18,162 bases of DNA from a bacterium. GTDB taxonomy: Bacteria > UBP6 > JAFGXH01. The position numbers and the translations under genes are program-made. How positions within the stretch are numbered: position 1 is the stretch's first letter; every line of letters starts with the position of its first letter. The notes below the pieces were generated by a model. That model was not told where the DNA came from and made no database searches. It saw only the letters and a list, made by a program, of their open reading frames with translations. Shown in pieces: positions 3,536 to 17,882 of this stretch. The stretch covers positions 1 to 18,162 of the forward strand of contig JAMOQH010000034.1 in the NCBI GenBank assembly GCA_027064085.1, read 5' to 3'.

Positions 3536-5917
3536 TTAATTTATTACTTTTTTTATTATTTTCATAACCTGAATTAATTTACTATCCCAACTTTCAATAT
3601 TAAATTCAAACTCCTTTGATACCAAATTATTATTTTCTACTTCAAATCTAATGTTGTTAATTTCAAAATTATATTTAATATTAGTAGCATAAGTATTTCT
3701 TATCCTGTTTAACTCAATCCAAATTCTCCATTCCTTAGAATCTTTTAATGCTAATTCCGGAAAATACTTTGCCCTTTCAAGTAGTAAATTATTAGTTAAT
3801 ATATACCTATTACTCACTCCAAAATCCTTTACTTTAATTGGATTTTCTAATTTTTTAAAACTTTCTAGTTCAAAATAATGATAAAGTTCATCTTTTCTAT
3901 TTTCTAATTTTCTAAAAGGAATTTTTTTTCTGTTTATAATCTCTCTTTTTTTTATTTTTGCATAAAATTCAATAACAGATTCACTTCCAAATAGTGCTTT
4001 CGATTGATAAATCGAAATATATTCAATTTGATCTTTTAAAAAGTTATCTCCTTCTTTAATTGGCATATGATAGATCTTTTTCTCTTTTATAAACTCTAAT
4101 TGTTCTTTAGATCTTATTGAACCTATTAAAACATTCCTATTAAACTTAATATTATCAGTATATTCTTCATTTCCAATTGGCAATATATTTCTTTCGTAAG
4201 AAACAAGTGGACTCTCTTCAATTAGATTTTTTAAGAATTTACTCATTAATTTAATACTTCCTGGTAAGAATGGATATCCACCAACATTCATTTTTTTAAT
4301 GCTTTTATAAAATTTATGAGTTTTATATTCTTCTTCATTATTATTTGGAAATAAAACATAAGCACCAATCATAGTTCTTTTAAAATTTCCTTCTTCTTTA
4401 GAAACAATTGCGTCTCTATACCTATGCATTGCATTTATGCTTTCTTTAGTAGGCCCATTATCATTTAAAGTGTCTATTCTATACTTAGCATCAAATATAA
4501 ATTTGTATTTGATTTTAGAATTATTTTTCTGTAATTCTAAAATGTAATCTGGTTTTTGATCTGTTGTTTCACTTGATTCAAATTTATTATATGCAAGTTT
4601 AAATTTTTCATTTGTTTTAGGATTAATATAATTAATTACAGATTTTTTCCCTTTTCTTAAAGAAACATTTATTCCTGAGTAATTAAACTTAACAATATCA
4701 TCACTGACTAATTCATATTCTTCTCGAAGTATTTGATTAATTTTTAGGAAACACCAATATTCATATAGTTCAGCTGTATCCTTCATTGAAAGCCTAAATA
4801 AATCACTTTCAATTGTTAAACCTTTTTTTAGCATTACATAATATTTATATAAATCTCTATAACCAGGTGCCATTTGCAAAACTAATGATAATGAATCTAA
4901 TTTATAAATATCTCCTACATTTTTTAGGAACGTTAAATAGATAAGTGATTTCAATTTTCTATCAATATATTCAATCTTTTCAAGTACTTTTTTATCTGCT
5001 GATCCACTATAGTGATTATCAAAACTTTTCAAATACTTTCTCTTAAAACTGTTTAATCTTATTATGACATCTTTAATCATCCATTTAACAAATTTATTTT
5101 CAAAAGTATCATGTGTAATTTTTTTATCTACATCAAGAAATTTTGTAGGTAATCCAGTTTCAATATTATAAAACTTTGAATTTTGATTAAGCCATTTAAT
5201 ACCTTTTTTACTAACTTTTTTTACTTTAGAAGCTCTTTTTATTATAGTAATTTTTTCTAATTTGTGATGTGTTTGATTATCAACACGTCTAAATGCTTTT
5301 AAAAATAAATCAAAGATATTAATTAAGATACTAAAAAATTCACTATCACTTATTTTAGACTGATCGGTAACACTCATTTCTTGAAATGTTCTTTTCAAAA
5401 AATCAAAAGATAGATTATAAACTTCCTTGTTAATATCTTCCATTAACTGTTTATAATCTTCTTCATAATCTATTTTTGTTGGAAATACCTTTATTATTAA
5501 CTTAAATAAATCAGTCCCTTTTGATTTAACTATAAATTCTGTGTTACCAATATTATTTTTAAAATTAATTAAACCTGACAATATACCTTTATCAACTTCT
5601 TCTACAGAATTTTCAATTGATGAGTCTACATGATGAAATGTTAAATTCTGTTCTCCATCTTTCTTATCCCTAATATATATATTTAAATTTTGCTGTTCAT
5701 AAAATAATGGTGATATTACACTATTATTATACTTTTCTAGTTTTTCATTTTCTGTTGAATAATATTTAATTATATATTCATTACCTTTAAATTCATCTAA
5801 TTGGATACATTTCTCTATTTTTTTGTTTTTTTCTTCTCTTTGACTATATGGATGTACTGGTTTTCCTTTTATAATAAATTTTATATTTTCATTTTCTATT
5901 TTTAAAAGTTCTATCAT
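3536..5917 (-). CDS. McrC-like restriction nuclease subunit (DUF2357 + PD-(D/E)XK nuclease)
   Basis: This 793-residue protein has the layout of the DUF2357/PDDEXK_7 (DUF524) family that partners McrB-type AAA+ motors. The N-terminal ~380 residues are the DUF2357-like region, with FENKFVKWMI near 275 and KDTAELYEYWCFLKI near 385. The nuclease core follows: PDYILEL (P456, D457) and, 19 residues later, FDAKYR (D476, K478), the acidic and lysine residues of a PD-(D/E)XK site. The ~300-residue tail has no assignment. It is far larger than E. coli McrC (about 350 residues). ATG at 5917 has AAGGAG eight bases upstream, overlapping the stop codon of the McrB-like gene 12 bases before, so the pair is translationally coupled. 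The role, cutting foreign modified DNA under control of the AAA+ partner, is inferred from the family. Confidence 0.88.
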   Translation of the reverse strand: MIELLKIENENIKFIIKGKPVHPYSQREEKNKKIEKCIQLDEFKGNEYIIKYYSTENEKLEKYNNSVISPLFYEQQNLNIYIRDKKDGEQNLTFHHVDSSIENSVEEVDKGILSGLINFKNNIGNTEFIVKSKGTDLFKLIIKVFPTKIDYEEDYKQLMEDINKEVYNLSFDFLKRTFQEMSVTDQSKISDSEFFSILINIFDLFLKAFRRVDNQTHHKLEKITIIKRASKVKKVSKKGIKWLNQNSKFYNIETGLPTKFLDVDKKITHDTFENKFVKWMIKDVIIRLNSFKRKYLKSFDNHYSGSADKKVLEKIEYIDRKLKSLIYLTFLKNVGDIYKLDSLSLVLQMAPGYRDLYKYYVMLKKGLTIESDLFRLSMKDTAELYEYWCFLKINQILREEYELVSDDIVKFNYSGINVSLRKGKKSVINYINPKTNEKFKLAYNKFESSETTDQKPDYILELQKNNSKIKYKFIFDAKYRIDTLNDNGPTKESINAMHRYRDAIVSKEEGNFKRTMIGAYVLFPNNNEEEYKTHKFYKSIKKMNVGGYPFLPGSIKLMSKFLKNLIEESPLVSYERNILPIGNEEYTDNIKFNRNVLIGSIRSKEQLEFIKEKKIYHMPIKEGDNFLKDQIEYISIYQSKALFGSESVIEFYAKIKKREIINRKKIPFRKLENRKDELYHYFELESFKKLENPIKVKDFGVSNRYILTNNLLLERAKYFPELALKDSKEWRIWIELNRIRNTYATNIKYNFEINNIRFEVENNNLVSKEFEFNIESWDSKLIQVMKIIKKVIN

Positions 5918-5929
5918 AAATATAACTCC

Positions 5930-8323
5930 TTATAACCAGTATGCTGTAAATCCATCTTCTTCATAACTCTTGATCATATAGCAAACTTTTTCAGCAGATT
6001 TAATATATTTAATTTTTTCATTTTCATCTAAATCTTTCTTAATTAGTTCAGCAATCTTATAACTCTCGTGATCTTTAATCTTCCCGCCAAATTCAATATA
6101 AAGCTTAATAAGCAAATCTTTTATTGCTTTACTGCTTCCTTGAATTCTTGGCAATATTTTTTGCATTATTTGATAATCAAAAGCAATATTATAATCAAGT
6201 AAATTTAATTTTTTATTCTGAACCATATAAAAACTAATTTCATCTCTAACTCTATATCCTACATGTAAATTGTTTTCTTTTAGAATTTCATTAATAGACA
6301 CTAAATCAACTACAACCCTTTCCTTAATAAAGTCATGATATTCTTTTTCAATATTAATGAGTGTTGAGTAATTTGTCATTAAGAATGAATTATTCAATGA
6401 ACTTTTATAATCAACTTTATCAGAAGAATCATCAAATGGTAAGTCTTCTAACATTACCTCTGAAAATTCTATTGTATTTGCTCTATCTAATACTTTTTTA
6501 CTAAATGGGTGTGTTGTTTCATCCATATTTACTGTTCCTATAAAATAAAGATTATTTGGTAAATATATTTTTTCTTCAATTCCTAAATCGAAATAATCTG
6601 AATTAAAGTTTTCATTTTTAGTTTCCATTAAGCTTAAAATATCACTAAAATAATATTCTACTCTAGCAAGGTTCATTTCATCTAGACATACAATATATCC
6701 ATTATTCGAATCATTAATAGCTTCTTTAATAACCTTAAATAATTTTCCTTTTATAAACTTTCCTGATATATCTTTATAGCCTAATAAATCCGACATATCA
6801 TTCCAGTCCGGTTTAACAGGAATAATATCTAAATTATATCCTATTGCTTCTGAAAACAGTTCTACCAGTTTTGTTTTGCCTGTTCCTGATATACCAGCAA
6901 GTAATACAAATGGTTTTGATTTAAGAGATAAATAGAGATTTTCAATTATACCTTTGGGGTAATTGAAACCTTTTTGATTGATGTATAAGTCTATTTTGTT
7001 TATTTGATCAACTTTTATAATTTTTCTATACATTTTTAACATCTCCATTAAATCAATCTCAATTTCTTTTTCACTTGGTAAATTCCCATTCTTATATTTT
7101 TTAGCATATATAATTGCATTATGATATTGTGAACCAATACCAGTATCTGACAACTTTTCAATATTTTTCAGCAAATTTTCATTCTTAATTTTTCTATATA
7201 TATATTGTTTTCTCTTTTCTAATTTATCTAAATCATTAAATTTATTCAGTACAAACACAATATTTACAAATATTTCATCTTTTTTATAAGAATATAAATA
7301 ACCCATTCCTATATCATCTTTAGTTTTATATCCAATCCATGGTACAGTAGCCCATCTACCTATACCTGTTGAACCCGAAAAAACAACTTGTTCCCCCAAT
7401 TTATAATATAGAATATTATAAATAGTTTTAGGCAAATCATTTATAATAATAGGTTTAATTGGATGCCCTTTAAAATTCTCAGTTTTTATAATGTTTTTAT
7501 AATATTTTGTTATAATCCATATTTTATCTTTAATAAATAAACCATTATCTACAACAAATAATTTGAACTTTTTCTCAATTCCAGAGTACATTAAAATATA
7601 ATATTTATTAGAATCTCTCTCATTTCCAGAATCAAGATAATCATAATAATATGGATATACTTTATTTAATTCTTCTTTTAACTCTTTTCTGAAACTAATT
7701 CTATAAAGTTCTTTTTTTCTATTATTTTGAATTACATTCCGTATTCTACAGTTATATTGTTTGTCATTAAACTCTATCTCAATTTCATTTGTATTTCCTA
7801 TTTCTAGCTTACCTAAAATATTATCAAAACATTTATGATTTTCCATATCAATTATAAAACCTTCAGAAAAAAATGTTTTAGATATCTCTTTTTTAGTAAC
7901 TACTTTAAATTCCTGAAGAAACTTGCTAATATCCTGATTTAAGTTATTATTATAATAACTTAATAATTTGCTATCTAATAGTTTTTTTAATTCATGATTA
8001 TCTATTTTTGTCCAATCACCTGCATAATAAATCAAATCACCAAAAACTTTAAGCATTTTAATTCTAAATATTGGCATTTCTTCCATATATTTACCTAACT
8101 TTATTATATCTGTATTTTCAATATCTAGCATTAACCCATCAGTGTTTTCTGTTTCACATTTAAATCCATTATTTTTTAAAGATACATAAAAAAATTTGAC
8201 GTAATCAAATAATTCATTTTTTTTAAATTTACCTCCTTCAGAAGTTAAATCTAAGAATGCTTTGTAAACAACAAATTTATATGATTTTTGACTTCTTTTC
8301 AGATCATTTATTATTTTTTGCAT
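5930..8323 (-). CDS. McrB-like AAA+ restriction motor with DUF3578 (MrcB N-terminal) region
   Basis: This 797-residue protein starts at ATG 8323, with AAGGAG six bases upstream. The first ~50 residues have the SYKFVVYKAFLDL pattern seen at the N-terminus of several restriction proteins. A beta-rich stretch around 150-260 is unassigned. A DUF3578-like region at about 270-420 includes GSTGIGRWATVPWIGY (around 316-331); in relatives such N-terminal regions recognise the DNA target. The AAA+ core follows: Walker A GISGTGKT (477-484), Walker B CLDEMN (D548, E549) and the McrB-type loop NMDETTHPFSKKVLDRA near 597-613. The C-terminal EEDGFTAYW segment is typical of McrB proteins paired with DUF2357 nucleases. 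The motor probably forms a hexamer driven by nucleotide hydrolysis that translocates DNA and activates the nuclease downstream. Whether it uses GTP or ATP cannot be read from the sequence. Confidence 0.88.
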   Translation of the reverse strand: MQKIINDLKRSQKSYKFVVYKAFLDLTSEGGKFKKNELFDYVKFFYVSLKNNGFKCETENTDGLMLDIENTDIIKLGKYMEEMPIFRIKMLKVFGDLIYYAGDWTKIDNHELKKLLDSKLLSYYNNNLNQDISKFLQEFKVVTKKEISKTFFSEGFIIDMENHKCFDNILGKLEIGNTNEIEIEFNDKQYNCRIRNVIQNNRKKELYRISFRKELKEELNKVYPYYYDYLDSGNERDSNKYYILMYSGIEKKFKLFVVDNGLFIKDKIWIITKYYKNIIKTENFKGHPIKPIIINDLPKTIYNILYYKLGEQVVFSGSTGIGRWATVPWIGYKTKDDIGMGYLYSYKKDEIFVNIVFVLNKFNDLDKLEKRKQYIYRKIKNENLLKNIEKLSDTGIGSQYHNAIIYAKKYKNGNLPSEKEIEIDLMEMLKMYRKIIKVDQINKIDLYINQKGFNYPKGIIENLYLSLKSKPFVLLAGISGTGKTKLVELFSEAIGYNLDIIPVKPDWNDMSDLLGYKDISGKFIKGKLFKVIKEAINDSNNGYIVCLDEMNLARVEYYFSDILSLMETKNENFNSDYFDLGIEEKIYLPNNLYFIGTVNMDETTHPFSKKVLDRANTIEFSEVMLEDLPFDDSSDKVDYKSSLNNSFLMTNYSTLINIEKEYHDFIKERVVVDLVSINEILKENNLHVGYRVRDEISFYMVQNKKLNLLDYNIAFDYQIMQKILPRIQGSSKAIKDLLIKLYIEFGGKIKDHESYKIAELIKKDLDENEKIKYIKSAEKVCYMIKSYEEDGFTAYWL

Positions 8324-8802: not shown

Positions 8803-11307
8803 TTATTCATTGAAAAACTCCGTTAAACTGTTATCTTCATAGTAATTATTTAAATCAACTATCATTTTATTTTTCAACTCTTTAATATCATCATTATTTA
8901 AATCTCTCCATAAAATATGATTAAATGCTATTTTACTTAAATCTTTAGAATAATAAATAAATCTTTTTCGTTCAAATTTTTCAAAAGGATTCTGAATCAT
9001 ACTTTGTTCCATGCTTTTCCTATCTTCTAAATAATCCATTCTTGAATAAGGCGAATTTCTCTTTTCTACGATATAATTTTTATTGTGTCTTTCAATATAA
9101 TAATTTATATATATATCAAGGATTTCATTCATTTTTGCCTCACCACTTTTATCAATTACTTTCAAAACTGATAATATAAATATTATTTTATATGAAAAAG
9201 AATAACTCCCTTCATCAATATACTCTTTAAAATCTTCATATATAGTTTCTTCATTATGAAATTTCAAGTCTTTTTCTCTTATAATAATTTCTACTGCTTC
9301 AGGTTTGAAATAATTTAATTTCCTTCTTCCAAAAGGAATTGTTTGATTAGGAATTACTTCACCTTTCTTGATCCAACTTCTTAATGTACCAGTATTAATA
9401 AATAATTCCCTAGCTAATTGTTCCTCACTTAAATAGTCCCCATATAATTCCTCAAATGTAAATATATTTATTTTTTCAATTTTCATTTCATTTTCGAACA
9501 GGTTACTTATAATTTGAAATTCATTATCTGTGGAATATATAATATTTTCTTCCTCAACAATACTAGCCCATGGAGAATAAAAATTTCTTCCAAATAATCC
9601 GTTTAGTGACCACGGCATATTAAAACTATTATAATTATCAACTACATCTATCACATATAATGCTTCTTTTCTTGAAAATTTTCTTGTTCCTCGTCCAAGT
9701 TGTTGAGTATATAAAACCTTAGACATTGTTGGTCTTGCCATTACTATAATCGATGTTCTGGGTGAGTCCCAACCTTCGTTTAATAAATCACAAACGCATA
9801 AAAATTGAATGCTCCCTTTTTTATAATTTTCGATATCTTTTTCACTGTTTTTATGTTTACTACTTATTCCAGCTACAGAAAATCCTTGTTCTTTCATTAA
9901 TCTGGTCATTTCATTTACATGTTTGATATTAACACAAAATATCACACCAGATTTTCTATTTAAAGAACTTTCAACAAAGGTTTTTTTCAATAAATCAACA
10001 ATCAATTGATTCCTAGAAGTAACTCTTATTCTTTTTTCTAAATCTGAAGATGTATAATCCTTTCCATTAAATCTAACTTCACTTAAATCAATACTTGATT
10101 TTAATCTATAAGCTCTTATATTACATAATATATTATCTTTAATTGCATCTTCTAAAGTCATTAGACTTTCGTATTCTCCAAATATTTTACTTACTTTTTT
10201 ACCATCCAGTCTATCTGGAGTTGCTGTTAAACCTATTAGACAATTAGTATCAAAATATTGAATTACTTTTCTTATTGTAGGAGCTGGAGAATGGTGAGCC
10301 TCATCCACAATAAAATAGCTAAATGACAGTTTATCATAATCACGAAAATGTCTAGAAATCCATGAATATGTTTCAATAATAAATTTGTTCTCATATTTTA
10401 CTAAATCTTTTCTCCATTGATCCCTTATTTTTCTAGTAGGACATATTATTAAACCTTTATCAATTTTAATTCTCTCAATATCTTCTAGAATTATTCTACT
10501 TTTGCCTGTACCAGGTGGTAAAACAACCAAAAACGATTTTTTACCATTTTCTCTATCTCGTTCCAATGTTTTAAGCCAATTTTTTTGATGTTTATAGAGT
10601 GTAACTTCTCGATGTAATTTTACTAAATTCATATTAATAAATTCTTCTTTTTCACCAAAATATTGTCTCATTTCATCTGCTACAACATCATGAAATTTAA
10701 TATCCTCTGTTGACCATCTATATATTTTTCCGTTTTGAGAAACTATTGAATTTTGTTTACACAACTGCGATTTATACTGTTTTTTTGTTATATTACATGG
10801 ATTATGAAATGATACTCCATTTTCTTCAATAGCAATAAAATAGTTTTCTTTAAATATAACATAATCAATAAATCTTGTTGCATTCTTAACATCTAAAACA
10901 GGATATTCCCTTTTTACATATCCAATTGCTTCTCTACCATAAACTTCTTCAAATATATTTTCAAAAAAAACTTCATTATTACTTGGATCTATACTTTGCA
11001 ATTCTCTATTACTTCCTCTAAATGAAATTTCATTTTCAGAAAAATCATTTGATAAAAACATTTTATAATCACTTTTCATCTCTTCAAAATCATTTTCATT
11101 ATCAACGAAAAATCTATAACATCCGCTATATTTAAACATTATATCATTCTGCTCTTTTGTATATTTATTGTAACTAAAAGCTATATCACAAATATTAGTG
11201 TTATCTATTATTACTGCAATATCACCATTTACATATAATATTGCATTATCTAAATTTTCAAAAAATTTAAACCCATTTTTGCTAAGCCAATCATTTATTA
11301 CAACCAA
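8803..11307 (-). CDS. SF2 DEAH helicase with N-terminal Vsr/DUF559-like nuclease fold and internal HTH
   Basis: The start is placed at TTG 11307, because GGAG (about nine bases upstream) fits it best; the longer frame from TTG 11322 lacks a spaced site. Using that start (834 residues): residues about 105-200 resemble Vsr/DUF559 endonucleases (RFIDYVIF, then IAIEENG, then QNSIV), with ENG replacing the more usual E.DG or ExK ending. The helicase follows: Walker A PPGTGKS (K269), DEAH at 335-338, GLTATPDR near 358, and motif VI QQLGRGTRK near 535. Residues about 620-670 form an excisionase/MerR-type helix-turn-helix (LSEEQLARELFINTGTLRSW then IKKGEV), unusual inside a helicase. The ~160-residue tail is unassigned. 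It starts 29 bases after the MazG-like gene, almost certainly in one operon. It probably unwinds or translocates on foreign nucleic acid; its exact role is unknown. Confidence 0.85.
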   Translation of the reverse strand: MVVINDWLSKNGFKFFENLDNAILYVNGDIAVIIDNTNICDIAFSYNKYTKEQNDIMFKYSGCYRFFVDNENDFEEMKSDYKMFLSNDFSENEISFRGSNRELQSIDPSNNEVFFENIFEEVYGREAIGYVKREYPVLDVKNATRFIDYVIFKENYFIAIEENGVSFHNPCNITKKQYKSQLCKQNSIVSQNGKIYRWSTEDIKFHDVVADEMRQYFGEKEEFINMNLVKLHREVTLYKHQKNWLKTLERDRENGKKSFLVVLPPGTGKSRIILEDIERIKIDKGLIICPTRKIRDQWRKDLVKYENKFIIETYSWISRHFRDYDKLSFSYFIVDEAHHSPAPTIRKVIQYFDTNCLIGLTATPDRLDGKKVSKIFGEYESLMTLEDAIKDNILCNIRAYRLKSSIDLSEVRFNGKDYTSSDLEKRIRVTSRNQLIVDLLKKTFVESSLNRKSGVIFCVNIKHVNEMTRLMKEQGFSVAGISSKHKNSEKDIENYKKGSIQFLCVCDLLNEGWDSPRTSIIVMARPTMSKVLYTQQLGRGTRKFSRKEALYVIDVVDNYNSFNMPWSLNGLFGRNFYSPWASIVEEENIIYSTDNEFQIISNLFENEMKIEKINIFTFEELYGDYLSEEQLARELFINTGTLRSWIKKGEVIPNQTIPFGRRKLNYFKPEAVEIIIREKDLKFHNEETIYEDFKEYIDEGSYSFSYKIIFILSVLKVIDKSGEAKMNEILDIYINYYIERHNKNYIVEKRNSPYSRMDYLEDRKSMEQSMIQNPFEKFERKRFIYYSKDLSKIAFNHILWRDLNNDDIKELKNKMIVDLNNYYEDNSLTEFFNE

Positions 11308-11336
11308 TATTATCATCTCCAAGATATGTAAAAGAG

Positions 11337-11660
11337 CTATTTTTCAATTACTTTCTCCAAAATAATTCTTTTTTCAAACCCGCCTCTTTTATTTTTTTTA
11401 TCTTTTTTTATTTTTTGGATTTTTGCTTCATCTAAATCAAACACATTTTTTAATGAATCAAGTACTTCAAGAATATCAGCCATTTCTTCTTCACAAGGAT
11501 TTTCTTCAAATTCTTTTAATTCCTCAGAAACTTTTTTTATCAATTCAATAATATATTCATCTTTTTCTGCAATATGGATAAAATACTCATGTCCTGAATT
11601 TTTAATAATTTCTGGTATATCATCTCTAATAAGTTTATTATAAATTATTTCTTTCGACAT
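11337..11660 (-). CDS. Small MazG-like NTP pyrophosphohydrolase
   Basis: This 107-residue protein is of the all-alpha NTP pyrophosphatase (MazG / phosphoribosyl-ATP pyrophosphatase) type. It opens with the family signature YNKLIRDDIPEII (7-19) and carries the magnesium-binding set EExxE (46-50) and ExxD (E59, D62). Relatives hydrolyse nucleoside triphosphates to monophosphate and pyrophosphate. Here the position directly before a nuclease-helicase suggests nucleotide-pool control or a signal-related role in defence, which is inference. ATG 11660 has AAGGGGG four bases upstream. The ~115 bases before it are A/T-rich and may hold a separate promoter (TTACAA-17-ATATAA), though weakly supported. 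The C-terminus is lysine-rich. Confidence 0.85.
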   Translation of the reverse strand: MSKEIIYNKLIRDDIPEIIKNSGHEYFIHIAEKDEYIIELIKKVSEELKEFEENPCEEEMADILEVLDSLKNVFDLDEAKIQKIKKDKKNKRGGFEKRIILEKVIEK

Positions 11661-11762: not shown

Positions 11763-11784
11763 TTTTATCCTAATTTTATCCTAA
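11763..11784. repeat. Tandem 11-base repeat across the NERD gene stop codon
   Basis: Two perfect adjacent copies of TTTTATCCTAA (plus strand, 11763-11773 and 11774-11784). The NERD stop codon (11776-11778) lies in the right-hand copy, so translation ends before the second copy on the minus strand is reached. It looks like a small slippage duplication; no function is evident. Confidence 0.7.
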
Positions 11785-12342
11785 CTTTCTTTTAATATCA
11801 CTAATATGCTTCTCTTTCATTTCATCACTTACCATGATATTTTCTATTAACAATTCATATAAATTATTAATTTCATAATTAGTTAAAATATCTTCTGAAA
11901 CTTTATTTATTTTTTTAATCTTTTTTATTAAACGCGGTCTTCTTAATACTAAAACATCATCATCAATTCCACTTATTTTTTTTAATGTACATCTTTTGCT
12001 AAATACAATAATTGACTTAAATATATCATCCGATAAATCTAAATATTCTGCTAAAGCGTTAATATGCCCATAATTTTGCCATACAGGGTTATAAAATTTA
12101 TGTTTTTTACCTTTTCCAAAAGTTTGTGTCCAGTTCTTTCTTTTACCATTTTCGTATATCCATCCACCATAATTTTTTGATTCAAAAACATATATACCTT
12201 TTTCATTAATCATTAATAAATCTATTTCTGTTGTTTCATTATCTTCTTTTGGTATATATACATTGAGGAGTATTTTTGCATTTGGAAATTTCTTTTCTAA
12301 TATATAAAATGTTAAAAATTCTCCTAATAATCCTGCATCCAT
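11776..12342 (-). CDS. NERD nuclease-domain protein (core of a probably frameshifted gene)
   Basis: From ATG 12342 the frame codes for 188 residues. The NERD core shows GLLGE (4-8), then TEIDLLMINEKGIYVFESKN (about 37-56) with the acidic and ESK residues of the PD-(D/E)XK-like fold, and a following YNPVWQNYGHI segment. NERD domains occur in defence and DNA-processing proteins and are thought to be nucleases. The start is doubtful: the frame is open upstream to about 12392, reading NSSFLRVVMDAG, which from memory resembles homologues that place NS.F.....G just before GE, behind an N-terminal membrane helix. Such a helix is present in another frame from 12470. I infer a one-base loss in an A6 run (plus-strand T6 at 12387-12392). 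A restart at 12342, with AAGGG five bases upstream, could still yield a soluble NERD protein. Confidence 0.75.
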   Translation of the reverse strand: MDAGLLGEFLTFYILEKKFPNAKILLNVYIPKEDNETTEIDLLMINEKGIYVFESKNYGGWIYENGKRKNWTQTFGKGKKHKFYNPVWQNYGHINALAEYLDLSDDIFKSIIVFSKRCTLKKISGIDDDVLVLRRPRLIKKIKKINKVSEDILTNYEINNLYELLIENIMVSDEMKEKHISDIKRKLG

Positions 12343-12350
12343 TACTACCC

Positions 12351-12470
12351 TTAAAAAACTGCTATTACTATAATTTTTATAAGAACTTTTTTATACTTTA
12401 AATATACTGGTAATATTCTTACTATAACTACTAGAATAAACAGCAAAAACATATAACTAATGAATTTCAT
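12351..12470 (-). CDS. 39-codon membrane-segment frame, probable true N-terminus of the NERD gene
   Basis: ATG 12470 has an excellent ribosome binding site (AAGGAG, six bases upstream) and lies 30 bases after the stop of the large helicase gene. It encodes MKFISYMFLLFILVVIVRIL followed by a short basic stretch (KYKK), a typical single N-terminal membrane helix, then stops at TAA 12351-12353. One extra base in the A6 run (12387-12392) would join it to the NERD frame. Whether it is made as a separate peptide, coupled to the NERD restart nine bases downstream, or is the stranded start of a broken gene cannot be decided from sequence alone. Confidence 0.5.
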   Translation of the reverse strand: MKFISYMFLLFILVVIVRILPVYLKYKKVLIKIIVIAVF

Positions 12471-12500: not shown

Positions 12501-15500
12501 TTAAATACTACCTTTTAAAACACCTTCAACTATTCCGTTTATAAATAAATTTTCATCTTTAATAAGTATTGGTTCATAATTTTTATTTTCAGGAATTAGA
12601 AGTATTGAATCACCTATTCTATTGTATCTTTTAACAGTAGCTTCATCATCTACTATTGCTACAACAATATCTTTTCGCTCAGCATAATTTTGTTTTCTAA
12701 CTAAAATTTTATCACCAATATCAATGCCAACATCGATCATGCTATCGCCTGTTACTTCCAAAATAAAATAAGTTTCATTTTTATTTATTATATTCTCCGG
12801 AATTAAAACTTCACCAAGATATTCATTATCAACACTGTTTAATGCTCCAGCAGAAATTTTTCCTATATTATTAACTTTTCTTATTTTATTGATCTGTATT
12901 AATTTATCATTTTCCTTCAAGGTAATCATATCCTCATAATTTTGTTCAATAACATAATTTGAATTTTTACTAAACCTAATATATTCAACTTTTCTTGAAC
13001 AATCAATTTCCAATTCATTATTTTTATGAGTATTATTACTTCCTATTGTTGCACTAATATCATATATTTGATTATTTTTTACTAACTCTATAATTGGCAA
13101 CAACACCCTAGTATCTGTTTTTTTATCCTCTGATTTCCAAAAGACAACATGTCTAACTCTTGCAATTGAAAATACATATCCTCTATTAAGATAATTTTGT
13201 AATTCATTCTTAAATTTCTTTGAGAATAATAATATCTTATTTTTCTTCCTATCATAACATCCCTTCACATCAACAGATAATTCATCACCACTAACAAGAT
13301 CCTGTAATGATTCACTAATTCCCTTATTATAATTATAGCTTAAAAAAACATCTTTATAGCTAAGTGGCAAGTACAACTTTGCTAATTTTTCATTTACTTT
13401 TGTAGGTGAAATAAATCTGATATCGTCTCCAATTTTCCTAAATACATCATTAAGCTTAACATCTTTATAATGCACCTGAAGATTATTTTTTGCTCTAGTC
13501 AAAGCGACATAAAGCGCTCTTTTTTGTTCTTCATTGTTTAATTCAAACTTATCTAACATTATTACTACATTGTCAAATTCACGACCTTTTGATTTATGAA
13601 TTGTGGAAACATAATAAGCATTATCATTAGTACTTACAAAATCCTCTAATTTAGACTCCTTTAAATGTATTAAGAGATCTGATATATACATTACTTTTCC
13701 AGATGTTTCTTCAAAGTCGCTAATCATCCTTCTTATAGTATCTAAATTATCACTAGCACTGAATTTGCTAAATAAAGATCGTTTAGCATTAATCCATTGT
13801 ATTTTATCGATAATATGCATTTCCTCATCAAAATGTAATTTATCTAAAAAATATCTAATTTCATTTAAGTTAATAGGATTTATATTGTCATATGCTTGAA
13901 TTAATTTTACATTCAAATTCTTTTCTGTTAGTAATCCTACAACTTGTAAAGCTTCAAAATTTGTATTAGTCAAAATGCAGGTATTTCCACTCCAAGAAGT
14001 TTTCAAAATTGACTCAATAACATTGGTAATCATATTATCAGATTGATTATAATGACACGCAAAAATCTCACCAGCCTCTTTTCTTACCGGTAATATTGGT
14101 GTATTCTTCATTCTGTTTTGGATTATTGAAGCAAAGCCATTAGATAAATTAATTAAATTAGATTTACTTCTATAATTTTCAACAAGTTCATACAGTTTTG
14201 CATCAGTTGCATTCAATATCTTTTTCATATACTCTGAACTTGATCCTCTGAAACCATATATATTTTGATCATCATCACCAACAGCAATAACTCTCATATT
14301 TTCATTTTGTTTAACCATTGATCTTATAAAGTTAAATTCATTTTTATCCATATCTTGAGCTTCATCTATAACCATAACTGTTTTAGTTATTCTTGAATGT
14401 TCAATTTCATCATTCAAGATCATTTCAGCAGTTTCAGCTACAATACTATCTGATCGATTAACATCTCCAACTTTCCCTTGTAAATCAAAGCAGTATGAAT
14501 GAAATGTTTTAATATCAATATAATTTGCTGCTGCTCCAATTAAGTCCTTAAGTCTTTTCTTAAACTCAATTGCAGATGCTCTTGAAAACGTCAACATTAA
14601 CAGCTGCTCATGTTTAACATCTTCTAATAAAAGTAAAGATGCCAACTTATGAACTAAAATTCTTGTTTTTCCACTACCTGGTCCTGCTGCTACTACAATA
14701 TACTTAGTTTCATTGTCTTTAATAATAGATAACTGTGATGTTGACAATGATCCAAATAATTCCTCAAATTTTTTAGGTGTAATATTCTTCTTCAACATAT
14801 CTTTTTTATCATCCTTAAAGTATTTACTTAAGAATGCTTTATACTCTAATTGAAAATAATCATCTACAAATTTTAAAGCACCTAAATAATCGCTAATCAT
14901 TTTTTTAGCATATTCTCCTACTATATGAATTTGATGTCCTTTTTGTTTATAGTAAGTATCAAGTGTTTTATAATCATCGATTTTATATTTTATTCTATTA
15001 TCTAACTCTAATCTCTGGATATTTAAGCGATTGTAAATTACTAAGAAACCACCTTCTATTTTTAAAGCACCTATCCTTGAAAGATAAAAAAGCGATTCTT
15101 CAACTGCCTTCAATGTTATTTCTGTTCCCATTAATTGATTGCTATAATTAAATTCATCTTTAAGTTCATTTACAGAAAATTCAACAGCAAAATTACTGTC
15201 ATTACTTGAGTTCTTTTCATATAAAAAATTAAGAATAAAATCAGATACATTAATTCTATTATTATATAAAGTATTAAGATTATCATGTTCCTTTTTAAAT
15301 ACAACTCTTATATGATTTCGATCACCTTTTGAAGTGTCTTTTTTAATCCAGCCTTTTATTTCCCAGAAATTAAGTAAAGTAATAATCTTATCTGTAGTAA
15401 CTTTTTTTAATCCTTCTTTATCTGCACTTTCATTTAAAGCCTTAATATTGTAAACACCATCTTCAACTATATTGTTAATCAAAAATATCTCAAGCTCTTT

Positions 15501-17882
15501 AAACCACTTAAGTAAATTAGACGACTTTTGTTGACTACTTTCATCATTTAAGAACGCTGATAAGTCTTTATCATCAGCTAATATTCCCTCTTCTCTCAAT
15601 AAAGAAATAATTCTGATAGTATTTCTAATGTCTATTCCCAAAAGATCACTTATATAATCAACTCTTGTCTCGTTTTCCGCAGATTTTCTACTCTTACTTT
15701 TTATCAACATAGAAATCATATTAACAGCTATCTCTTTATCTTCTTCAGCTATTTTTTTTGAAGCTCTAATAATAGTTTGTGCATCCATAACACTTTTAGA
15801 TAAAATACTATCCGCATAAATACGTGGTGAATTTTGTCCACGCTTAATATAACCTGATTGCTCAAGAGCTGTTATTGCAGTTTTTACTCTTGTCTCCAAA
15901 TCATAAATATTATCGTCCCATCCAGCTTTTCTTGCTATTTCAAGGGCTGATTGTGTTATATTTTTTCTAGTTCTAGTAATATCTTTTATAGCTTTCCAGA
16001 TCTGTCCGATTTCACTAATACTTAGCTTTGTTTGATTTAATAGATTAAAATGCGCATTAAGATCATTATCATCATATAAAATGAAACATTCAGCATCAAT
16101 TGTTTGATCTCTTCCCGCTCTGCCAGCTTCTTGAACATAATTTTCTAAGGAATTCGAAATTTGATAATGTATAACTAAACCAACATCAGATTTATCTACT
16201 CCCATACCAAATGCAGAAGTTGCAACCATAATATCAATATTACCAAGTATGAACTGCTCCTGATTCTTGTTTTTCTGTTGTTTATCCATCTTACCATGAT
16301 AAGAAGCAGCATTATAACCATCGCTTTTAAGTCTATCCGCAATCTCTTCAGTTAATTTAGTCTTAGATGCATAAACAATAGTTGGAGTTTGCTTCTCTTC
16401 TATAAGCAGTCTTAATCTATCATACTTATCCGATTTAGCACATTCTATTACTTTATAGGATAGATTTTTCCTCGAAATACTCGCTGAAAAAAACTCCATC
16501 TCAACACCTATATAATCTTTAAAATAAGCCATTATATCATCTACTACACTTTGTTTTGCTGTTGCAGTAAAACAAGAAACTGGTATCATTTTTTCTAAAT
16601 TTTTAGCTTTATATAACTTATTTATGAATTCACCAATATACAAGTAATCAACTCTAAAATCCTGACCCCATGCAGAAAAACAATGAGCTTCATCAATAAC
16701 AAATCTCTCAATTTTTCTTGATAACAATAACCTTTCCATTGATTTTGATCTCAATGATTCAGGAGAAATATACAGAAGTTTTGCTTCACCATTTTCAACT
16801 CTTTTAATAGTTTCTGATCTTTCTATTGGATCAAGCAATCCATTAATTGCAACTGCACATGTAATACCCTTTGATTCCAAATTATCTACTTGGTCTTTCA
16901 TTAGTGATTGAAGTGGAGATATGATTACTGTAAGTCCACCTGATGCTTTCCCTGACATAAGTGCAGGAACTTGAAAAGTAATTGACTTACCACCGCCAGT
17001 TGGAAATATAGCTAAAAGTGATTTTCCTTCCATTGCTGCCGTAGCCGCTTCTTTTTGCAATTCTTTCCCATCAAAAGATCTAAAATTATCATAACCAAAG
17101 TAATGACGTAACCCTTGTGTTGGATCTAATTGTGAACGACAATATGAACAACCCATATCACATGGCTTACTTCTTAAAACAGATATTACATTTTCCACTT
17201 TTGGATACTTCATAAGAACCCATTTTGGTGTAACTGATGCATCATCTCTAGAATTAATCACTGACAATGCATATGCTAATTCAATAGAATTATTCTCGAT
17301 TAAGTTTGTTAAATTTACATTTTCACAAATTCTTTCTTTAAATACACTATTTATTAGTTTTATTATATTTTTTTCTTTTCTCTCAGTTTTCCAAAAAATT
17401 AGCTTAGATTTCTGTAATTTTTCATCTACGTACTTGAAAAAGCCTTTAAATTCATCTGTATCTTTTAACAAAATACTAAAGATATCCTTCATATTCTGCG
17501 ATAATTTTTTATAAGCATTTATTTCATCATAGAAAAGTTCCCTTGCCTTAATAGAGTCATTAACAGGGTTATTTAACTGTTCTGTAAGTAGCTTGTCATC
17601 TTTCACTAACTTGTGATATGGATTCTTAGCGAACAGTAAAGGAGATAAATACAAAGTATCAATTATATCTTTACTATCCAAACTAGTATCTGACTTTCTT
17701 ATATAGACTAAGTCATGATTCAATATATTATGACCACATATATATTCGGCATCCTCTACAAACGGAAAAAATTCATCCTTTTTACCTGTATGCACATTCC
17801 CACCAAATTCGTCTACAGCACCAAAGTCAACAATTTTCCTACTATCGATATTCACTTCTGTATCAATAAATACTATCTTCAT
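12501..17882 (-). CDS. Exonuclease-RecQ-UvrD-LexA-like (S24) fusion protein
   Basis: The start is ATG 17882, because AGAGG lies eight bases upstream; the longer frame from TTG 17918 lacks a site. Domains of the 1793-residue product: 1-130, DnaQ-like exonuclease (D7, E9, D57, D109; the usual histidine five before D109 is Asn104); C241-X3-C245-X2-C248, a possible zinc site; about 255-640, RecQ (Walker A PTGGGKS with K299, DEAH 397-400, QEAGRAGRD near 585) with winged-helix-like segments after it but no canonical RecQ zinc motif; about 1040-1490, UvrD-type SF1 helicase (GPGSGKT with K1072, DEAQ at 1173, GDDDQNIYGFRG near 1200, VALTRAK near 1460); 1500-1660, unassigned; about 1670-1793, LexA-like S24 protease with Ala1678-Gly1679, Ser1714 and Lys1751. 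It probably processes broken or invading DNA and may be controlled by self-cleavage. First gene of the operon. Confidence 0.9.
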   Translation of the reverse strand: MKIVFIDTEVNIDSRKIVDFGAVDEFGGNVHTGKKDEFFPFVEDAEYICGHNILNHDLVYIRKSDTSLDSKDIIDTLYLSPLLFAKNPYHKLVKDDKLLTEQLNNPVNDSIKARELFYDEINAYKKLSQNMKDIFSILLKDTDEFKGFFKYVDEKLQKSKLIFWKTERKEKNIIKLINSVFKERICENVNLTNLIENNSIELAYALSVINSRDDASVTPKWVLMKYPKVENVISVLRSKPCDMGCSYCRSQLDPTQGLRHYFGYDNFRSFDGKELQKEAATAAMEGKSLLAIFPTGGGKSITFQVPALMSGKASGGLTVIISPLQSLMKDQVDNLESKGITCAVAINGLLDPIERSETIKRVENGEAKLLYISPESLRSKSMERLLLSRKIERFVIDEAHCFSAWGQDFRVDYLYIGEFINKLYKAKNLEKMIPVSCFTATAKQSVVDDIMAYFKDYIGVEMEFFSASISRKNLSYKVIECAKSDKYDRLRLLIEEKQTPTIVYASKTKLTEEIADRLKSDGYNAASYHGKMDKQQKNKNQEQFILGNIDIMVATSAFGMGVDKSDVGLVIHYQISNSLENYVQEAGRAGRDQTIDAECFILYDDNDLNAHFNLLNQTKLSISEIGQIWKAIKDITRTRKNITQSALEIARKAGWDDNIYDLETRVKTAITALEQSGYIKRGQNSPRIYADSILSKSVMDAQTIIRASKKIAEEDKEIAVNMISMLIKSKSRKSAENETRVDYISDLLGIDIRNTIRIISLLREEGILADDKDLSAFLNDESSQQKSSNLLKWFKELEIFLINNIVEDGVYNIKALNESADKEGLKKVTTDKIITLLNFWEIKGWIKKDTSKGDRNHIRVVFKKEHDNLNTLYNNRINVSDFILNFLYEKNSSNDSNFAVEFSVNELKDEFNYSNQLMGTEITLKAVEESLFYLSRIGALKIEGGFLVIYNRLNIQRLELDNRIKYKIDDYKTLDTYYKQKGHQIHIVGEYAKKMISDYLGALKFVDDYFQLEYKAFLSKYFKDDKKDMLKKNITPKKFEELFGSLSTSQLSIIKDNETKYIVVAAGPGSGKTRILVHKLASLLLLEDVKHEQLLMLTFSRASAIEFKKRLKDLIGAAANYIDIKTFHSYCFDLQGKVGDVNRSDSIVAETAEMILNDEIEHSRITKTVMVIDEAQDMDKNEFNFIRSMVKQNENMRVIAVGDDDQNIYGFRGSSSEYMKKILNATDAKLYELVENYRSKSNLINLSNGFASIIQNRMKNTPILPVRKEAGEIFACHYNQSDNMITNVIESILKTSWSGNTCILTNTNFEALQVVGLLTEKNLNVKLIQAYDNINPINLNEIRYFLDKLHFDEEMHIIDKIQWINAKRSLFSKFSASDNLDTIRRMISDFEETSGKVMYISDLLIHLKESKLEDFVSTNDNAYYVSTIHKSKGREFDNVVIMLDKFELNNEEQKRALYVALTRAKNNLQVHYKDVKLNDVFRKIGDDIRFISPTKVNEKLAKLYLPLSYKDVFLSYNYNKGISESLQDLVSGDELSVDVKGCYDRKKNKILLFSKKFKNELQNYLNRGYVFSIARVRHVVFWKSEDKKTDTRVLLPIIELVKNNQIYDISATIGSNNTHKNNELEIDCSRKVEYIRFSKNSNYVIEQNYEDMITLKENDKLIQINKIRKVNNIGKISAGALNSVDNEYLGEVLIPENIINKNETYFILEVTGDSMIDVGIDIGDKILVRKQNYAERKDIVVAIVDDEATVKRYNRIGDSILLIPENKNYEPILIKDENLFINGIVEGVLKGSI

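Follow-up and report, generated by a model that had tools for sequence, protein, structure and literature searches.

A LexA-type S24 domain at the C-terminal end of an exonuclease-helicase, and its possible role as a self-cleavage switch

To our knowledge, self-cleavage by known S24 domains controls either repressors of transcription or UmuD, a small subunit of a polymerase. The LexA repressor combines the S24 fold with an Ala-Gly bond and a Ser-Lys dyad, with spacings of 35-36 residues from bond to Ser and 37 from Ser to Lys. UmuD is a small separate subunit, encoded next to umuC, that loses an N-terminal stub; its RecA-stimulated self-cleavage activates a subunit of DNA polymerase V (PMC9578287), i.e., the S24 domain controls an enzyme rather than gene repression.

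Here we describe a 1793-residue protein whose C-terminus is formed by a complete LexA-type S24 domain. It is encoded in a window of 18,162 nucleotides, the whole stretch of DNA that was analyzed. Like LexA, its tail has the S24 fold, the Ala-Gly bond and the Ser-Lys dyad; unlike LexA, it lacks a winged-helix DNA-binding domain, lies behind a 1600-residue exonuclease-helicase and has Leu in place of the Pro of the AGxP motif. We propose that the tail controls an enzyme, as UmuD does, although in this case the S24 domain is fused in cis. The setting is not that of umuD, the tail lying inside the 1793-residue open reading frame, with NERD, MazG-like, ResIII and McrBC-like genes as neighbors. In the open-licence papers searched, no description of a helicase fused to an S24 domain was found, and it appears that, while the parts are known, their combination is new.

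Domain architecture and the S24 tail

The domains of the protein (Table 1) were assigned from Pfam and NCBIfam profiles and from structure models, and follow in the order DEDD-type exonuclease-fold domain, RecQ helicase, UvrD-type helicase, conserved C-terminal domain, linker and LexA-type S24 domain. The original prediction of a helicase in front of the S24 domain was borne out, with a probable exonuclease domain in addition. The RecQ family model (TIGR00614) scored 291.8 bits, above its cut-off of 219.8, whereas the canonical RecQ equivalog (TIGR01389) scored 337.7 bits against a cut-off of 640.2, matching only model positions 4-346 of 591. The UvrD-type helicase carries the Walker A motif AAGPGSGKT and DEAQ as motif II, while the conserved domain that follows it (residues 1492-1606) has no convincing Pfam match.

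Table 1. Features of the window (all on the minus strand) and the evidence for each
Feature	Position	Strand	Evidence or remark
Helicase-S24 gene, 1793 aa	12501..17882	-	ORF with ATG start at 17882
N-terminal domain, residues 1-235, probable DnaQ-like DEDD 3'-5' exonuclease fold	17178..17882	-	Alignment, AF2 model
RecQ-type SF2 helicase core, about residues 257-621	16020..17114	-	TIGR00614 recQ_fam, 9.2e-87
UvrD/PcrA-type SF1 helicase, about residues 1047-1472	13467..14744	-	PF00580, 6.3e-30; PF13361, 1.3e-16
Conserved C-terminal domain, about residues 1492-1606	13065..13409	-	Alignment, C-termini of homologues
Variable linker, residues 1607-1668, S24-bearing form only	12879..13064	-	
LexA-type S24 self-cleavage domain, residues 1669-1793	12504..12878	-	Profile, PDB, alignment and fold matches
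Predicted scissile bond Ala1678-Gly1679 (GKISA/GALN)	12846..12851	-	Bases checked by hand
Predicted catalytic Ser1714 (GDSM)	12741..12743	-	Bases checked by hand
Predicted catalytic Lys1751 (EATVKR)	12630..12632	-	Bases checked by hand
Helicase-S24 + NERD block shared with locus L010	11773..17934	-	blastn, 90.8% DNA identity
NERD-domain gene, downstream of helicase	11776..12470	-	PF08378, 9.5e-28
NERD frame; membrane-leader frame	11776-12342; 12387-12470	-	Offset by one base relative to L010
McrC-like (DUF2357 + PDDEXK_7) and McrB-like (MrcB_N + AAA_5) pair	3536-8323	-	
ResIII/SNF2-type helicase adjoining small NTP pyrophosphohydrolase-like (MazG-like) protein	8803-11660	-	Small protein without Pfam match

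Residues 1-235 form a probable DEDD (DnaQ-like) exonuclease domain, as judged from alignment and modeling. In an alignment of 27 sequences of the helicase family D7, E9, D57 and D109 were invariant, and Asn104, five residues ahead of D109 where DEDDh enzymes carry the motif III His, was present in all 27. The AF2 model of this domain (pLDDT 84) gave Staphylococcus aureus DinG as its top structural match (Z 13.4, rmsd 4.0, 208 residues aligned), followed by DnaQ, ExoI and Orn, with DnaQ-type matches spanning Z 9.6-13.4. S. aureus DinG likewise joins a DEDD exonuclease domain to a helicase, although its helicase is XPD-like rather than RecQ plus UvrD, and we know of no S24 domain in it.

The tail matched Pfam Peptidase_S24 at 7.8e-26 (90.5 bits, cut-off 23.3) and the NCBIfam lexA model at 1.2e-28 (100.1 bits, slightly below the equivalog cut-off of 110.95). 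Among PDB chains it matched Thermotoga maritima LexA (6.4e-18), and UmuD chains recognized it too. The positions predicted for the bond, Ser and Lys proved exact in the ATG-started open reading frame, as did the spacings of 36 residues from A1678 to S1714 and 37 from S1714 to K1751, which lie inside the LexA/UmuD range. The domain itself was predicted at 12501-12860, which is where it lies, except that this span omitted its first residues: it starts near 12878 (residue 1669). When both known helicase tails (see below) were aligned with 24 LexA/UmuD-type proteins drawn from Clostridia, the host phylum, plasmids and phages, the A, G, S and K were invariant, and across these 26 sequences the spacings ranged from 34 to 36 (A to S) and from 37 to 40 (S to K). 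In the AGxPxxA scissile loop, the usual Pro is replaced by Leu and the usual Ala by Val or Ile in both helicase tails.

Neither Pfam nor NCBIfam detected a helix-turn-helix or winged-helix domain beside the S24 domain, in agreement with the predicted lack of a repressor DNA-binding domain; what precedes it is the linker of 62 residues and the helicase C-terminal domain. In a tree of S24 domains the helicase tails formed a pair, carried by a long branch that lies outside the UmuD-type group; the tree did not single out their nearest relative.

In an AF2 model of residues 1600-1793, pLDDT exceeded 90 across nearly the whole S24 core, while the linker was modeled as low-confidence beta strands. 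The best structural matches were LexA, namely 1jhe (Z 17.3, rmsd 1.9, 122 residues aligned), which we take to be LexA crystallized in a cleavable form, and T. maritima LexA (Z 17.3). LexA bound to RecA also matched (8s7g and 8gms, Z 17.1; 8trg, Z 16.1), with UmuD' lower at Z about 11.8. Structure prediction, the check that had been suggested for the tail, therefore returned a LexA fold at Z 16-17, RecA-bound LexA included.

Distribution and conservation of the tail

A tblastn search with the tail covered 62 related loci, 44 of which had a recognizable C-terminal domain. Besides the window, only one carried the tail, i.e., locus L010 of Clostridiaceae bacterium HSG29, a Clostridia MAG, whose protein is 92% identical to that of the window. 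The tail-less relatives, annotated as 'RecQ family ATP-dependent DNA helicase' (1600-1760 residues), have the same order of exonuclease-fold, RecQ, UvrD and C-terminal domains. Where their C-terminus is readable they end shortly after residue 1606, with no linker and no S24 domain, and no NERD gene of the window type was found in the loci compared. Their identity to the window protein is about 48% in Bacteroides/Phocaeicola; in Clostridia it reaches 59% along the entire protein. We rejected the idea that the tail is a family-wide trait. Because it was found only in L010 and the window, and relatives stop at about residue 1606, sequence comparison indicates that the S24 tail is a recent, or late, addition in one lineage onto an older nuclease-helicase. 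The prediction that homologues would conserve the Ala-Gly bond, Ser and Lys held for both fusions, but most homologues lack the entire domain.

The tail-less form is widespread: it is carried by plasmids from Bacteroides, Aliarcobacter, Rhizobium, cyanobacteria and others, and by contigs of viral collections. When genomes were sampled from the phylum, the order and the class to which the Clostridia MAG belongs, the family turned up in 16 of 398, 11 of 297 and 24 of 391, respectively; the samples partly overlap, and that MAG is included in each count. Many members elsewhere are interrupted by stops or breaks.

No S24 domain fused to another large protein was seen in 80 viral S24 loci, nor among the approximately 155 best S24 matches listed from 391 Clostridia genomes, where open frames reached at most 332 residues. 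One locus (L241, 5507-8272) has a LexA-like repressor 2.5 kb from an ordinary member of the helicase family. It was considered as a split helicase plus S24 pair and rejected, the S24 gene being an ordinary helix-turn-helix repressor separated from the helicase by an opposite-strand methyltransferase/restriction-type pair. Clostridium sp. CCUG 7971 (L013, 8869-9345) has a frameshifted S24 protein without a DNA-binding domain, whose gene lies upstream of one for a cytosine methyltransferase and of others of restriction type.

Between the window and L010, dS was 0.36 and dN/dS 0.11 over the whole gene. For the S24 domain dN/dS was 0.14 (bootstrap range 0.07-0.27) at a dS of 0.44, much as in the helicase domains, while the linker (residues 1607-1672) was 64% identical with a dN/dS of 0.36. 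The bond and dyad were unchanged, and the codons for G1712 and D1713 differed silently. These values, from a single comparison of two copies that are 92% identical, are evidence that the S24 domain is under purifying selection, i.e., that it is maintained, as had been predicted for the intact domain; they are no proof of cutting. Chance resemblance to S24 domains is excluded by the HMM scores, the fold and the selection.

Genomic setting and host

By blastn, the homology between the window and L010 is confined to exactly the helicase and NERD genes, and the flanks are unrelated; this suggests that the two form a mobile cassette. In an A-run of its NERD gene, the window has one base fewer than L010, so that the leader and NERD frames are split, which may reflect decay, phase variation or sequencing error. 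The view that NERD is an obligate partner was unsupported. In Acetoanaerobium noterae, an orphan relative, i.e., a membrane-anchored NERD protein (L273, 10481-11167), lies near other defence-type genes; an AbiE-type pair and a type I restriction-modification system adjoin it.

The other genes of the window, including the McrB/McrC-like pair and the ResIII helicase, have the appearance of a defence island. PADLOC matched the McrB-like protein to PDC-M26A and the McrC-like protein, weakly, to PDC-M26B; its Gabija (GajB) and Dpd (DpdF) matches to the helicase cover generic helicase cores only, and no gajA or dpd partner genes were seen in the window. Defence-type genes often recombine, decay and carry stops. 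Given these defence-island neighbors, and the many family members broken by stops, a role for the helicase-S24 protein in phage defence is plausible from genomic context. There was no conserved SOS box upstream of the helicase.

The host bin (G000) comprises 195 contigs and is 94.7% complete. A RecA gene is present in this bin, in two genomes of the same family (G001 and G002), and in the genome of L010 (G028), which also has its own LexA. No canonical LexA was found in G000, and G001 and G002 gave only weak LexA-type matches (L071 and L072) that look signal-peptidase-like by eye. Judging by these three genomes, canonical LexA seems to be missing from this family, which keeps RecA, while a LexA of about 215 residues occurs in most of the host phylum. 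If the contig was binned correctly, no LexA-type S24 domain other than the helicase tail was found in G000. The GC content of the contig is 0.27 and that of other contigs in the bin 0.21-0.31; we keep in mind that transfer or misbinning of the contig may lie behind its 92% match in a Clostridia MAG.

Possible consequences of self-cleavage

According to the mechanism that we favor, the S24 domain would dock onto RecA-ssDNA filaments, as LexA, CI and UmuD do, and Ser1714 and Lys1751 would cut the Ala1678-Gly1679 bond within the same chain. A C-terminal piece of 115 residues would be shed; in LexA-like proteins, this piece also holds dimer contacts. The remaining residues 1-1678 would resemble the tail-less enzyme of nearly all relatives, roughly the ancestral form, and cutting would lift a brake, leaving the enzyme free to act on DNA that is damaged or comes from a phage. 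Removal of a brake is favored because the cut product would nearly equal the tail-less form of the family, and we judge the chances that the tail is a switch of this activating kind to be about even. We infer the cleavage itself, RecA as its trigger, and activation rather than destruction as its outcome. The fuller scheme is more tentative, and we would sooner doubt it than adopt it. It envisages a precursor nuclease-helicase, carried with NERD on a mobile cassette, whose LexA-type tail, on sensing RecA-ssDNA, would cut itself off and turn the SOS signal directly into enzyme activity without transcription. Counting against the mechanism that we favor are the Leu in place of the AGxP proline in both tails, the lack of a conserved SOS box upstream, and the existence of LexA-like proteins that work independently of RecA (see below). 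The residues with which LexA contacts RecA may co-evolve and differ between species (PMC3834820).

An exposed C-degron after cutting would reverse the outcome. Self-cleavage, either RecA-triggered or slow and constitutive, might expose the new C-terminus to ClpXP-type proteases, so that the helicase was removed or short-lived. Once autocleavage has occurred, the fragments of LexA-like proteins are often broken down, and RecA-independent LexA-like proteins exist, e.g., IrvR, which self-cleaves constitutively for turnover (PMC7101444). The predicted N-terminal product would end in ...GKISA, which could be read in the same way; however, its new end would be a single Ala (ISA; ITA in L010) instead of the ...AA at which E. 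coli LexA ends after cleavage, and so a weaker match to a known degron. Discarding a very large enzyme upon DNA damage also seems less obviously useful than releasing it, and we regard destruction as unlikely.

Rather than cutting the protein, the tail might dock it on RecA-ssDNA or hold it as a dimer, cleavage being incidental. The S24 model matches RecA-bound LexA equally well as free LexA, and UmuD and LexA both bind RecA filaments and dimerize via the S24 domain (PMC3834820). However, docking alone needs none of the Ala-Gly bond, Ser and Lys, which are kept in both copies under purifying selection. We regard this as a distinctly unlikely account of the tail. Highly unlikely, in our estimation, is a recent fusion in which S24 is a passenger with no role in the helicase. 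That view would fit the rarity of the fusion (a single locus among the 62 searched, besides the window) and the recombination and decay common in defence-type genes, many members of the family being interrupted by stops or breaks; against it stand the dN/dS of 0.14 in the S24 domain at a dS like that of the rest of the gene, and a frame that is open in two assemblies with unrelated flanks. Finally, a chimaeric gene or a contig from another organism, suggested by the 195-contig bin and by a closest relative in a Clostridia MAG (92% amino acid identity) when G000 belongs to another, small group, is scarcely credible, because junction, linker and tail all recur, between different flanks, in the independent L010 assembly, while a misbinned contig, for which the GC of 0.27 gives no sign, would alter the host but not the gene.

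If the activating switch is correct, this helicase-nuclease would carry its switch in cis, and the processing of DNA would be tied directly to RecA filaments. Damage to the DNA, or an infection, could then cut, and hence switch, the enzyme itself, and the tail-less relatives would provide a ready control for what the tail contributes.
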